A DNA stretch of 64,000 nt, taken from Actinomycetota bacterium (lineage in GTDB: Bacteria; Actinomycetota; Actinomycetes; Actinomycetales; Dermatophilaceae). Shown here one piece after another: positions 5,082 through 48,279 of the stretch. A model generated the notes under the pieces. That model was not told the origin of the DNA. It worked only from the letters and a program-made list of their open reading frames with translations, and did no database searches. The translations under genes were made by a program, and so were the position numbers. Positions within the stretch are counted from its first letter, which is position 1. Every line of letters starts with the position of its first letter. Location of the stretch: contig JAIUNK010000013.1 in the NCBI GenBank assembly GCA_020161845.1, forward strand, positions 47,424 through 111,423. Direction: 5' to 3'.

Positions 5082-5813
5082 TCATGGCGCCGTCTCCTCG
5101 GTGAGCCGGCCGTCCCGGATGTGCACCACCCGGGCGGCCCGCTGGGCCACCTCGCGCTCGTGGGTGATGACGACCACGGTGCGGCCGCCCGCGTGCAGCT
5201 CGTCGAACAGGCCCAGCACGTCCTCGGTGGAGGCCGAGTCGAGGTTGCCGGTCGGTTCGTCGGCGAGCACCAACGCCGGCTCGGTCACCAGCGCCCGCGC
5301 CACCGAGACTCGCTGCTGCTGACCCCCGGACAGCTCGCCCGGGCGGTGGTCGACCCGGTCGCCGAGCCCGACCCGGTCCAGGGCCTCCAGCGCCCGGCGC
5401 CGCCGTTCCGGCCGGCCCACCCCGGCGTACAGCAGCGGCATCTCCACGTTCCGCCAGGCGCTCAGCGTCGGCAGCAGATTGAACTGCTGGAACACGAAGC
5501 CGATCTCGCGATTGCGGATCCGGGCCAGCTCCCGCTCGTCCAGGCCGCCGACGTCGGCGCCGGCGAGCAGGTAGCGCCCGGAGCTCGGCACGTCGAGGCA
5601 GCCCAGGATGTGCATCAGCGTCGACTTGCCCGACCCGGAGGGACCCATGATGGCCAGGTGATCGCCGCGGGCCACCCGCAGGCTCACCCCGCGCAGGGCG
5701 TGCACCTCCAGTTGGCCCTGCGCGTACGTCTTGTGCACGTCGACGAGCTCCAGGACCGGTACGTCGCGCGCCGCTGCGGCCGCGTCGGGGGCGGGTACGT
5801 CGAGTGTGGTCAC
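5082..5813 (-). CDS. MacB/LolD-type ABC transporter ATP-binding protein
   Basis: 243 residues with all nucleotide-binding motifs: Walker A GPSGSGKST (57-65), Q-loop FVFQQFNLLP, signature LSGGQQQR (161-168), Walker B LVLADEPTGNLD (181-192) and the H-loop VITHE. The TGNLD and QFNLLPTLSAWRNVEMPL segments are typical of MacB/LolD/FtsE-class ATPases that pair with FtsX-like permeases. Start ATG 5813 overlaps the stop of the upstream adaptor by 4 bp (ATGA), so the two are translationally coupled. It powers the permease encoded immediately downstream. It has only the nucleotide-binding domain, as in Gram-positive split MacB systems. Confidence 0.95.
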   Translation of the reverse strand: MTTLDVPAPDAAAAARDVPVLELVDVHKTYAQGQLEVHALRGVSLRVARGDHLAIMGPSGSGKSTLMHILGCLDVPSSGRYLLAGADVGGLDERELARIRNREIGFVFQQFNLLPTLSAWRNVEMPLLYAGVGRPERRRRALEALDRVGLGDRVDHRPGELSGGQQQRVSVARALVTEPALVLADEPTGNLDSASTEDVLGLFDELHAGGRTVVVITHEREVAQRAARVVHIRDGRLTEETAP

Positions 5814-9950: not shown

Positions 9951-11018
9951 TCAGTCCGTCGTGGCCCGCTCGCCGCGGTGCGCGTTGCGCGCCGAGCGGA
10001 CGACGACCAGCTGGTCGCCCGCCCTGACCCGGGACACCTCGTCATCGACGGTGTAATGCACGGTGCCGTCCCGGATGATCCCGAGGACGCGGTCGCCACA
10101 GTCCGCGTAGTGCACGCCGTCCTCGGCCGGGCGGGCCTCCCGCTCTGCGATCTCCACGCCCTGGCCATAGTTCATCAGGTCGCTCAGGACGGCGCCGAGG
10201 TGTGGCGACACCGCCGAGGTGCCGAGCATCCGCCCCGCGGTGTCGGAGGAGACGATGACGGCATCGGCGCCGCTGGAGCGCAGCAACGGGGCGTTGTCGC
10301 GGTCGCGGACCGAGGCCGCGACGGAGGCCTTCGGGTTGAGCTGTCTCACGGCCAACGTGACGAGGATGTTCGCGTCGTCCCGCCCCGTCGCGACGATGAC
10401 CTGTTCGGCCCCCTGGATGCCGGCTCGGGTGAGGATCTCCCGCCGGGTCGCGTCGCCGGCGACCACGGCGTACCCGTCGGCGAGCGCCTCCTGGCGCGCG
10501 GCCTCGCCGGAGTCGATGATGACGAGGTCCTCCCGGCGCCGGCCGCTGCTGACCAACGTGGCGGCGGCGCTGCGGCCCTTGATGCCGTAGCCGACGACGA
10601 TCGTGTGCTTCTTCATTCGTCTCCTCCAGGCGGAGATGCGCAGTTCTTCGCGGCCCTGGACGGCGAGCACCTCCAACGTGGTGCCGATCAGCAGAACCAG
10701 GAACACGACGCGAGCCGGGGTGACGACGAAGGCGTTGATGAGGCGGGCCGAGTCGGAGGCGGGGGTGATGTCGCCGTACCCGGTGGTGCTCAACGTTACC
10801 GTCACGTAATAGATCACGTCGATCAGGCTCATGCCGTCGTCGTTGGAATCGCGATAGCCGCCGCGGTCGACGTACACCACCGCCACCGTGAACGCGAACG
10901 TCGCGAACGCCGCGAACAGGCGCACCGCCAGCCGCCGCCATGGCGACGGCGCTCGCGCCGGCAACGAGACCGCACCGCGTGCCGCGGGCGCCTCCGGGTC
11001 GTCTTCCGGCTGGGACAT
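9951..11018 (-). CDS. Two-TM potassium channel with RCK (TrkA-N/TrkA-C) domains
   Basis: 355 residues. ATG 11018 is chosen because AGGGAGGG lies just upstream, although the frame runs back to 11225. The N-terminus has one TM (30-50), a pore helix with selectivity filter TTGYGD (78-83) and a second TM (97-120), as in MthK/Kch-like channels. The cytoplasmic half starts HTIVVGYGIKGRSAAATL, a Rossmann RCK domain that binds nucleotide or ions, followed by a TrkA-C-like segment ending in GDQLVVVRS. It conducts K+ gated by ligand. It is divergent from the mrp Na+/H+ antiporter operon across about 200 bp, which suggests a shared role in monovalent cation and pH homeostasis. Confidence 0.9.
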   Translation of the reverse strand: MSQPEDDPEAPAARGAVSLPARAPSPWRRLAVRLFAAFATFAFTVAVVYVDRGGYRDSNDDGMSLIDVIYYVTVTLSTTGYGDITPASDSARLINAFVVTPARVVFLVLLIGTTLEVLAVQGREELRISAWRRRMKKHTIVVGYGIKGRSAAATLVSSGRRREDLVIIDSGEAARQEALADGYAVVAGDATRREILTRAGIQGAEQVIVATGRDDANILVTLAVRQLNPKASVAASVRDRDNAPLLRSSGADAVIVSSDTAGRMLGTSAVSPHLGAVLSDLMNYGQGVEIAEREARPAEDGVHYADCGDRVLGIIRDGTVHYTVDDEVSRVRAGDQLVVVRSARNAHRGERATTD

Positions 11019-45720: not shown

Positions 45721-45781
45721 GTCCGGCTCCTGGACGAAACCGGCCCTGACCTGCAGGGCGCTCGCGTCTCGACGGTGCCAT

Positions 45782-45926
45782 GCGTCGCTCACCTGCTGTG
45801 GGCGCCGATGTGGGCACACAACCTGCTGCTCATACGACGACGCCTGCACTCACACATGCACCCACAGGCCGCCGGCCCGGGTGCGCTGCGCGCGTCGTCA
45901 CGCGTCGCGCCCCATGGACGCGTTCC
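45782..45926. repeat. 145-bp intergenic repeat, copy A
   Basis: Aligns without gaps over most of its length to copy B at 46922-47065. It opens with an imperfect stem (CTGTGGGCGC at 45796 against GCACCCACAG at 45858) nested around GATGTGGGCACACA and CACACATGCA, then a conserved tail CGCGCGTCGTCACGCG and CCCCATGGACGCGTTCC. No coding sense was found in any frame. It lies between the acyl-CoA ligase and the alpha/beta hydrolase. Confidence 0.85.
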
Positions 45927-45930
45927 CGGG

Positions 45931-45960
45931 AGCGATGATGCACGCGGTGGGGCCGTCGGC
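45931..45960. repeat. 31-bp direct repeat, right copy
   Basis: Second copy of the element at 45690-45720, about 27 of 30 bases identical by eye, immediately right of the 145-bp repeat copy A. Confidence 0.7.
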
Positions 45961-45989
45961 AGCAGCGCGGGCCGCCTAGATGGCGGACC

Positions 45990-46074
45990 TGGCGAAGTGA
46001 CGGCGCTGGCGAAGTGACGGAAGTGGCGAAGTGACGGAAGTGGCGAAGACAGGGAAGTGGCAAAGGTGGCACCG
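45990..46074 (+). repeat. Tandem 17-bp repeat, five units, abutting a start codon
   Basis: Units start at 45990, 46007, 46024, 46041 and 46058; units 2 and 3 are identical (TGGCGAAGTGACGGAAG), the others carry a few changes. The fifth unit (with AAAGGTGG as Shine-Dalgarno) ends exactly at 46074, and the hydrolase ATG is 46075-46077. Each unit contains GGAAG/GAAGTG-like ribosome-binding sequence, so copy-number changes could alter translation. Confidence 0.9.
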
Positions 46075-46899
46075 ATGAGCGACAACCCCGAGATCGGCCG
46101 GTCCGTCCGCACGGGCCCGTTCCTGACCAACTATCACGACGTGGGAGCCGGCGCTCCGATCCTCCTGCTGCACGGCTCCGGCCCCGGCGTGAGCGCGTAC
46201 GCCAACTGGCGCCTGGTCATCGACCGGCTGGGAAGCACCCATCGGCTGCTCGCGCCCGACTTCGCCGGGTTCGGGTTCACCGAGGTCCCGCAGGGCACGA
46301 GCTACCACCGGGACCTCTGGCTGGGTCAGCTCGTCGACTTCCTGGACGCGCTCGGGATCGAACGAATCAGCGTCGTGGGCAACAGTTTCGGCGGCTCGAT
46401 GGCGCTCGCGCTGGCCATCCATCACCCCGACCGCGTCGACCGGCTGATCCTGATGGGCGCCGTGGGCGTGCCGTTCGAGTTGACCCCGGGACTCGACGCC
46501 GTGTGGGGCTACCAACCCGACGAGGACCGGATGCGGACGCTGATGCGGGACACGTTCGCCTACGACGGCGCGCTGGTCACCGACGACATCGTCCGGTCCC
46601 GATACCTGGCGAGCATCCGTCCCGGCGCGCAGGAGGCGTTCGCCTCGATGTTCCCCGCCCCCCGGCAGCGCTGGGTGGACGCGATGGCACACCCCGAGGC
46701 CGCCATCCGCGCGATCACGGCGCCGACGCTGCTCGTGCACGGCCGGGACGACAAGGTGATTCCGCTGAGCACGACGCTGACCATGCTCGACTGGATCGAC
46801 GACGCCCAGGCCCACATCTTCGGCCGCTGCGGACACTGGACCCAGATCGAGAAGGTCGACCCGTTCTGCCGCCTCGTGGCCGACTTCGTCACCCCCTAA
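46075..46899 (+). CDS. Alpha/beta hydrolase, meta-cleavage product hydrolase-like
   Basis: 274 residues from ATG 46075, directly after a tandem repeat; GTG 46057 inside the repeat is an alternative start. LLLHGSGPGVSAYANW oxyanion segment, GNSFGGSMALALA nucleophile elbow (Ser about 105), LLVHGRDDKVIPL with the catalytic Asp and RCGHWTQIEKV with the catalytic His. HGSGPGVSAYANWR and GHWTQIEK are characteristic of DmpD/TodF/BphD-type enzymes that hydrolyse ring-cleavage products. No dioxygenase gene is nearby, so the exact substrate is open. Flanked by 145-bp repeats in direct orientation. Confidence 0.85.
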   Translation: MSDNPEIGRSVRTGPFLTNYHDVGAGAPILLLHGSGPGVSAYANWRLVIDRLGSTHRLLAPDFAGFGFTEVPQGTSYHRDLWLGQLVDFLDALGIERISVVGNSFGGSMALALAIHHPDRVDRLILMGAVGVPFELTPGLDAVWGYQPDEDRMRTLMRDTFAYDGALVTDDIVRSRYLASIRPGAQEAFASMFPAPRQRWVDAMAHPEAAIRAITAPTLLVHGRDDKVIPLSTTLTMLDWIDDAQAHIFGRCGHWTQIEKVDPFCRLVADFVTP

Positions 46900-46921
46900 C
46901 CGCCGGAACGCCCCGCGTCAG

Positions 46922-47112
46922 GCGTCGCTCACCACCTGTGGGCGCTGATGTGGGCACACAATCTGCTGCTCAGACGACGACTTCTGCACCCACACATGCA
47001 CCCACAGGCCGCCGAGCCGCTGCGCTGCGCGCGTCGTCACGCGTCGCGCCCCATGGACGCGTTCCTCGCACTCCGCTGCGCTGCGCGCGTCGTCACGCGT
47101 CGTCACGCGTCG
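46922..47112. repeat. 145-bp intergenic repeat, copy B, with CGTCACGCGT tandem
   Basis: 46922-47065 matches copy A in direct orientation, including the CTGTGGGCGC and GCACCCACAG arms. It continues with a 29-bp segment (47062-47090) found inverted at 51708-51736 and ends in four CGTCACGCGT decamers reaching the stop of the pfkB gene at 47113. Confidence 0.85.
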
Positions 47113-48279
47113 TCACGCGTCGGAGAGCCGGGCGATCGTGGCCTGCGCGCGGTGCACCACGCTGTATGGCTGATCCGGCACCAGGTCCTCCATGAACGCA
47201 TACCGCCGCCGGACCGAGGCCAGATAGGCGCCGCTGCCCTTGGCGTCGCGCAGCGCATGCCACCAGTCGACGATGTCGCCCCAGCCGGGCGCCGCCAGGG
47301 ACCCGCCGACCTGCTGCACCGCCAACGAGGAGCACAACGCGGCGAACGCCAGCCGGTGCGCCAACGGCCAGCCGGCTAGGGTGCCGAGCGTGACGGCGGC
47401 ACCGAACACGTCACCGGCACCGGTCGGGTCGGTCGCCGCCACCTTGAGCGCCGGCACGGACGCCTCCTCGCCGGTCGTCGCGTCATAGGCCAGCGCACCG
47501 AACGGCCCATTCGTCACGACCGCCAGCGGCACCCGGTCGGCCAGCGCATAGAGCGCGTCCTGCGGCGTCTCGGTGCGCGTATAGGCCATCGCCTCACCCG
47601 CATTCGGCATGAACGCGTGACAGCGGGACAGCGCGTCGAGCACCCCCACCTCCCACCGCCCGGTCGGATCCCAACCGACATCGGCAAAGATCAGGGCCCC
47701 GTCCTCGTACGCCGCGTCCGCCCACTGCGCGCCCAACGTCTCGCCGGGGTGGTGCGCGGACAGATCCATGAGCACGGCCCGCGCCCGCGGCGGCCGGCCG
47801 ATCATCGCCGACGGGCACTCCGGTTCCTCGTGGCCGTGGGTGACCATGTTGCGGTCGCCCTCGACGGCGATCGACACGGTCACGGGCGAGTGCCAACCCG
47901 GGTAGCGCTTCGACGAGGACAGGTCGACGCCCTCCTGTTCGAGGGTGCGCCAACAGAACTCGCCGTAGTCGTCGTCGCCGAACGCGGCGCCCAGGCTGGT
48001 CCGCAGGCCCAACCGGGAGGCGGCCACGGCCAGATTGGCGATGCCGCCGGGGCAACTGCCCATCCCGTCCGCCCACACCTCGCGGCCGCCGGACGGCATG
48101 GCTTCCAGCCCCGTGAAGATGATGTCGAGGAAGACCATGCCCTGCAGGAACAGGTCGAACTGGGGCGCCGCCGCACCCTCGGCGGCACGCCGCTGCGCGA
48201 GCGGGTCGAATCGGCAGCAGGCGCCTTGCTGCGCGGCGCTGGCCGACGGCGAGTGCGGCTGCGGGACTGGGGCGCTCAC
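47113..48279 (-). CDS. PfkB-family sugar kinase
   Basis: 388 residues from GTG 48279 with AGGAAGT 5-10 bp upstream. Ribokinase-like kinase: GGIANLAVAASRLGLRTSLG at the N-terminal signature (around residues 70-89), DLSAHHPGE, FMPNAGEAMAY, TNGPFGALAY and DPTGAGDVFGAAV holding the catalytic Asp. It phosphorylates a sugar or sugar-like compound with ATP. It is divergent from a sugar ABC uptake operon, so it probably phosphorylates the imported sugar. A Cys pair near the start and a C-terminal extension after the catalytic domain are unusual. Confidence 0.88.
   Translation of the reverse strand: MSAPVPQPHSPSASAAQQGACCRFDPLAQRRAAEGAAAPQFDLFLQGMVFLDIIFTGLEAMPSGGREVWADGMGSCPGGIANLAVAASRLGLRTSLGAAFGDDDYGEFCWRTLEQEGVDLSSSKRYPGWHSPVTVSIAVEGDRNMVTHGHEEPECPSAMIGRPPRARAVLMDLSAHHPGETLGAQWADAAYEDGALIFADVGWDPTGRWEVGVLDALSRCHAFMPNAGEAMAYTRTETPQDALYALADRVPLAVVTNGPFGALAYDATTGEEASVPALKVAATDPTGAGDVFGAAVTLGTLAGWPLAHRLAFAALCSSLAVQQVGGSLAAPGWGDIVDWWHALRDAKGSGAYLASVRRRYAFMEDLVPDQPYSVVHRAQATIARLSDA

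Follow-up and report, generated by a model that had tools for sequence, protein, structure and literature searches.

REP/REPIN sequences and BIMEs are dispersed, intergenic, imperfect palindromes with GTGG at the 5' end, and the core of the Xer/dif system has an 11-6-11 geometry. MITEs are short and non-coding, with terminal inverted repeats, and the attP regions of tyrosine integrases that have an N-terminal arm-binding domain contain arm-type sites. The element described here, a four-box dyad of 68 bp present in nine copies in the genome of a member of the Dermatophilaceae, resembles each of these systems in part. With REP/REPIN sequences and BIMEs it shares the dispersed, intergenic and imperfectly palindromic character and the 5' GTGG, but it differs from them in that no RAYT domain was found in the genome, its putative hairpin shows no covariation, and there are nine copies only. 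It is as short and non-coding as MITEs and likewise has terminal inverted repeats, yet no partner sharing its ends and no target duplication were seen, its length is fixed, and its pattern of box conservation looks like selection. Its 28-bp core can be read, as in Xer/dif, as a pair of 11-bp half-sites separated by 6 bp; this is a likeness of geometry only, and unlike dif the dyad has flanking boxes and nine copies rather than one. Finally, the dyad has in common with attP arm-type sites pairs of GTGGG boxes 11-12 bp apart, which in two distant phage integrase lineages lie on both sides of a ~200-bp stretch beside int. The phage pairs, however, are direct, separated by ~200 bp and adjacent to int, whereas those of the dyads are inverted, 28 bp apart and orphan, in nine copies. 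We regard the family as most likely a set of recombinase-type sites, with binding sites for a non-recombinase protein as a close rival.

The dyad has the form GTGGGYRC-N4-GTGGGYRC-N28-GYRCCCAC-N4-GYRCCCAC: 8-bp boxes are paired at 12 bp and the pairs are mirrored about a 28-bp core, resulting in a unit of rigid geometry with sharp ends near CTGTGGG...CCCACAG. Nine full copies were found genome-wide (full-dyad pattern, three mismatches allowed; five of them among the matches listed), and the reversed full-dyad pattern, used as a control, gave none in the genome. The copies are located on contigs C16, C27 (two), C54, C63 (two), C65 (two, A and B below) and C82. When a sequence model was built from the nine, the same nine were its best matches, and the next match, at E 0.006, is a half-site within a 901-aa frame that we take, from a start recognised by eye, to be valyl-tRNA-synthetase-like. 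The nine copies are partly defined by their boxes; neither BLAST nor the model gave boxless relatives of the dyad. The genome contains 20 exact GTGGGYRC-N4-GTGGGYRC pairs, compared with 2 matches to the reversed control. Fifteen of these pairs lie within the nine dyads, three adjoin the C27a and C82 copies, and the remaining two (C32:199567 and C63:52594) were both judged coding. In dyads with both pairs exact, the pairs are exactly 48 bp apart, and C27a, C16 and C82 each have an extra GTGGG motif in phase, 12 bp beyond the dyad. The genome stretches examined have a GC content of ~0.70-0.73, which together with the gene content points to an actinobacterium. We also note that additional GTGGGTGC boxes occur in the flanks of C27a (L064, ~10185-10390), together with the tandem unit TCGGAGAAGCAYGCGCRCCCACA (reverse strand).

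Two of the nine copies lie in the window, the whole 64,000-nucleotide stretch of DNA that was analysed, where a sequence-only reading had described a composite repeat of about 145 bp, aligned in register on either side of an alpha/beta hydrolase gene. The repeat is real and well beyond chance: when the 148 bp of copy B (46919..47066, + strand) were used as the BLAST query, copy A (45779..45926, + strand) matched with 91% identity across 147 query bases (E 1.3e-53). A repeat search split the same pair in two, 101 bp with 89% identity and a 45-bp tail with 100%. Measured from start to start, A and B are offset by 1140 as far as ~45879 and by 1139 in the tail, which indicates that one base was gained or lost and that the 145 bp are not in one register. 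The nested stem ascribed to each copy was found, with CTGTGGGCGC/GCACCCACAG at 45796-45805 / 45858-45867 in A and letter-identical at 46936-46945 / 46998-47007 in B, and so was the conserved tail. Within the window the pattern TGTGGGCACACAAYCTGCTGCTC matches A and B only, and there were 0 matches in 100 shuffles. What the earlier note overlooked is that the inner 68 bp are the nine-copy four-box dyad and that the tail is an independent module. The dyad of A (45798..45865, + strand; C65:93221-93288) has one fixed box letter off, GCACTCAC, and that of B (46938..47005, + strand; C65:94361-94428) has four exact boxes; the two differ at 6 of 68 positions. Each of the 28-bp cores (45818..45845 in A and 46958..46985 in B, both on the + strand) is readable as a weak 11-6-11 dyad, and there is one base different between the two 6-bp centres. 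An Rfam scan of the window returned 0 matches at the gathering score.

The 45-bp tail is a short repeat separate from the dyad. Its copies in A (45882..45926, + strand) and B (47021..47065, + strand) are 100% identical, a third, partial copy at 76% that includes GTCGTCACGC tandem repeats is located at 47077..47121 (+ strand), and a dyad-free copy is present on another contig (43 bp at 91%, C32:92494, L006). The long form consisting of dyad and tail was found in A and B only. The suggestion that these repeats belong to a dispersed family is supported by the nine full copies, but the dispersed unit is ~70 bp rather than 145 bp. The tail module, of CGCTGCGCTGCGCGCGTCGTCACGCGTCG type, was seen without a dyad at this C32 position (L006) and at L011 (C32:92583).

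Across the nine copies, the fixed box positions contain 3 minority letters in 216 cells, compared with 78 in 324 cells for the core and spacers (27 in 72 for the spacers and 51 in 252 for the core). The YR positions have 23 minority letters in 72 cells, all of them transitions. Identity is 73% within the unit and 30% in the 60-bp flanks (with the A/B pair left out of the calculation). When tested for covariation, 82.5% of cells were paired versus 83.8% in shuffles, and the covariation score was 0.082 versus 0.094 in shuffles; in the inner stem, 75% of cells are paired. As single strands the copies fold with energies of -24.6 to -48.4 kcal/mol (z -1.3 to -6.4), and the fold is stable because GTGGG faces CCCAC. 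The lack of covariation, together with box letters that are fixed while the core and spacers vary, favours a double-stranded site that would be read by a protein over a selected hairpin. An RNA or ssDNA hairpin under selection was rejected on the same lack of covariation. The core has a symmetry of its own: its halves agree at 4.9 of 11 positions on the dyad axis versus 1.1 to 3.2 at shifted axes, a value reached in 32 of 2000 permutations, and the half-sites are of AGAA type around the 6-bp centre. With fixed boxes, YR wobble, free spacers and rigid spacing, the family offers a clear example of telling a probable protein-read site from a hairpin repeat.

All nine dyads were judged intergenic, using a GC-position gene finder and, for genes of the window, Pfam. 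The gene finder is rough: pfkB, which adjoins B, escaped it, and the frame that it called across the C16 copy is doubtful; one gene end is ~2 bp away from C63b. The neighbours of the dyads are unrelated chromosomal genes, encoding PEP carboxykinase (PEPCK), a sigma-70 factor, a NUDIX hydrolase, a carboxyltransferase and a permease, an FHA protein and a methyltransferase, a CAP protein and a PIN domain, and a sucrase/ferredoxin-like protein. The sequence-only reading had seen no transposase, and the 26 neighbouring proteins scanned include no transposase and no integrase. Judged by their flanking genes, five dyads are convergent, four are tandem and none is divergent; chance alone would give five or more convergent with a probability of 0.19 and none divergent with one of 0.17, and the bias towards convergent genes is not significant. 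At the sigma-factor locus, the genus genomes G003 and G002 have retained the conserved upstream stretch as well as the sigma gene, and the element is absent, with 148 and 887 bp, respectively, between the matching ends and spacers that are not alignable; in G001 there is a match on the sigma side only. Another palindromic repeat (GGCGGGCCGGGAGAGGGGTC / GACCCCTCTCCCGGCCCGCC, loop similar) was observed in at least three places (C82:35331-35402, which is L070 8332-8403; C58:12151-12270; and C1:62803-62892), and in C82 it occupies the same spacer as the dyad.

The dyad pattern had 0 matches in 395 other genomes of the order, a sample in which the three other genomes of the genus are not listed. 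In those three, the exact box pair had 1, 1 and 0 matches (2, 0 and 0 for the control), the 148-bp BLAST query had no match, and the dyad model had one partial match, in G003. Among 37 other relatives, four had short partial matches to the 148-bp query, of 21 to 53 bases, and the dyad model run with stricter filters gave only weak partial matches, at E<=0.01, in 32 of 185 other genomes of the family. Seven of the weak family matches were inspected; all are partial and lack the four boxes, and by eye they were put down to chance or coding sequence. The exact four-box pattern, with N at the YR positions, was matched once in 84,980 species, a comparison in which records of the same or very near genomes may be missing and with a pattern that fits six of the nine copies themselves. 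This single match, in Streptomyces spiroverticillatus, lacks the core and was taken as chance. Invariance in relatives, which the sequence-only reading had named as counter-evidence, was not seen: no full dyad was found among the order, family and genus genomes searched. Within this scope, and at one genome per species compared, the dyad family appears to be private to this species.

Viral contigs contained neither the exact four-box pattern (0 matches) nor the core pattern (0 matches), and a search of plasmids with copy B found none. Phages searched with C27a gave one partial match, between the neck and head-closure genes of a Vibrio phage, which was regarded as unrelated. Queries made from arm arrays gave one weak phage match for the L231 array and 12 phage matches and one plasmid match for the C82 array. 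Two of these 14 were inspected: one, from a Mycobacterium phage, falls in a spacer between minor tail genes, and the other lies within an integrase gene on a Sphingobium plasmid. All 14, with E-values of 2 to 5, were taken as chance. A literature search found no description of this dyad element. In the passages of PMC9262613 consulted, the sequence string sits in primers, and those of PMC6109161 and PMC8637289 do not contain the string GTGGG.

Among viral records with three boxes, 8 of 41 contain an integrase, as identified by Pfam, compared with none of a further set of 8 records. Three of the integrases (L186, L188 and L191) are 98-99% identical and represent one lineage, in which the boxes begin 10 bases beyond the integrase frame. 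A second exact GTGGG pair follows ~185-200 bp further on in L186 and L191 and is not exact in L188; in this lineage the second pair lies beyond a stretch that by eye resembles a tRNA end, and ARAGORN found no tRNA on L186. In the remaining five integrase records the boxes fall in sequence that looks repetitive or coding, lie 4.1 kb from the integrase (L194), or are found elsewhere in the record. The integrase of L231 is 24% identical to the L186/L188/L191 lineage and is followed by GTGGGCGC pairs at offsets 8/20 and 205/216. The integrase of L293, which is 55% identical to that of L231, has kept both GTGGG pairs at 12 and 11 bp spacing, and the bases next to GTGGG are changed relative to L231. 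From their place and conservation we infer that these phage GTGGG boxes are arm sites. GTGGG pairs were seen in none of seven more distant integrase relatives, and in L294, L295 and L297 other short tandem repeats are visible by eye after the integrase stop.

Among three-box loci that contain an integrase by a local profile, it lies within 1.5 kb in 3 of 4 cases versus 1.3 expected at random, all three being of one lineage; for the two-box set, with 80 of 96 stretches examined, the figure is 3 of 4 versus 1.7 expected. Over these larger sets, the closeness of boxes to integrases is near random expectation. The GTGGG box type appears compatible with integrase arm sites but is not diagnostic of them. 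The bacterial genome itself has seven integrase-family places, all on contigs other than those of the dyads, and the loci examined contain no 12-bp GTGGG pairs; one pair 13 bp apart is found near L146. At L145 (contig C80), three ~27-bp tandem repeats of ACTAGTCGACATTAANAACGCAC type directly follow the stop of a phage-type integrase and are perhaps that integrase's own arm sites. The three-box half pattern with a variable gap was found in viral contigs L287 and L288. Arrays of TGTGGGTACA / TGTGGGCACA boxes were also noted in viral L127 (~729-777), near a DnaA-C-domain gene in a record where no integrase was found, and in viral L288 (~5596-5644), where a DUF5906/VapE-like gene is close by and a scan of six ORFs showed no integrase.

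Our tentative reading, held at somewhat less than even confidence, is that the dyad is an orphan arm-core-arm site of the tyrosine-recombinase type, with arm-type boxes on the outside and a crossover core inside, and that there are nine such orphan sites. A recombinase with an N-terminal arm-binding domain would dock on the boxes and juxtapose core sites, so that DNA is inserted, excised or inverted; with A and B in direct orientation, the hydrolase gene would be excised as a ~1.1 kb circle. This is supported by the nine rigid copies, the conservation of the boxes, the weak symmetry of the core and the GTGGG pairs by phage integrases. It is weakened because the phage pairs are direct and ~200 bp apart while those of the dyads are inverted and 28 bp apart, because there is no integrase among the 26 neighbouring proteins, and because none of the seven distant integrase relatives carries GTGGG pairs. 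Standard integration, moreover, leaves no full arm-core-arm sites, so that the spread of nine copies is not explained by it. The 6-bp centres of A and B also differ by one base, and the direct orientation of the two is assigned on a nearly symmetric unit. The more specific proposal, that the nine compact inverted arm-core-arm sites are chromosomal orphans used by a resident or visiting integrase and that the hydrolase is a loaded single-gene cassette, seems to us quite improbable. If the dyads are recombinase targets, they would combine compact arms and a core in 68 bp and would offer a candidate for a natural landing-pad system in a genome of high GC content.

The features that suggest a recombinase site have to be weighed against other origins. 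The dyads might instead be bound by a lineage-specific protein that is not a recombinase, such as a nucleoid organiser, a partition-like protein or an insulating factor, a reading that we hold only slightly less likely. The same box conservation without covariation fits such a protein, as do housekeeping neighbours such as the genes for PEPCK, the sigma-70 factor and the NUDIX hydrolase, the 26 scanned neighbouring proteins with neither transposase nor integrase among them, and the extra in-phase boxes; inside a gene, a fixed stretch of 68 bp would spoil the coding sequence, which would keep the sites intergenic. Presence in one species only (0 of 395 order genomes), however, is odd for a housekeeping function, and a simple array needs no conserved core with its own symmetry. 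Should the dyads be the sites of another protein, they would mark a lineage-specific factor with nine mapped targets, one that could be found directly by pull-down.

Less likely again is a mobile repeat of REP/REPIN or MITE type, now decaying, that was moved in trans as an ssDNA hairpin or by its terminal repeats. The dispersed, intergenic and lineage-specific occurrence of the dyads, their sharp ends, their absence from the syntenic sigma-factor spacer in two genus relatives and folding energies of -24.6 to -48.4 kcal/mol are all consistent with mobility. Yet the RAYT domain Y1_Tnp (PF01797) has 0 matches in the genome (the control search was positive in 5 of 14 named genomes), and no partner with the same exact ends is found among the 20 exact box pairs, where a diverged partner or one lost at a contig end is possible. 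Inspection of the flanks by eye showed no target duplication, and the sparing of box letters by substitutions is not predicted by simple decay. Movement in trans, which the sequence-only reading had put forward as possible, is not supported: neither Y1_Tnp nor a partner was found, and the stem does not covary. A bidirectional transcription-terminator hairpin, duplicated to several gene ends, is very improbable. All nine dyads are indeed downstream of at least one gene end, as five convergent, four tandem and no divergent arrangements imply, but that distribution of gene orientations is within chance (0.19; 0.17), the orientation of the dyad relative to transcription is not constant, and the inner stem is only 75% paired and does not covary.

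The gene between A and B (46057..46899, + strand; Pfam Abhydrolase_1, E 7.3e-27), which encodes an ordinary alpha/beta hydrolase, had been likened with its repeats to a repeat-flanked cassette. A and B do bracket the gene, but the other seven dyads bracket no single gene, and the layout was rejected as a general rule since those seven are never paired around one. As the hydrolase is bracketed by the only two long-form copies, its position is suggestive of a loaded site, in this single case. An explanation that concerns A and B alone, and is compatible with all other readings, is that they arose by local duplication or gene conversion of the site and tail, with the hydrolase between them by chance; we consider the odds of this to be about even. 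The 45-bp tail is identical in A and B while their dyads differ at 6 of 68 positions, and no other dyad copy is paired around one gene, both of which argue for duplication or conversion. On the other side, when homologues of the hydrolase were sought, none reached E<=1e-40 in the three remaining genomes of the genus. One of 19 further genomes searched (G004) has a homologue at 55%, with no AMP-binding or pfkB neighbours within 1.5 kb; with no match in the genus and a homologue elsewhere, the hydrolase may be an acquired, repeat-bounded gene rather than a chance neighbour. Just upstream of the likely ATG of the hydrolase, at 45981-46065, there are also 17-bp tandem repeats of TGGCGAAGTGACGGAAG type.
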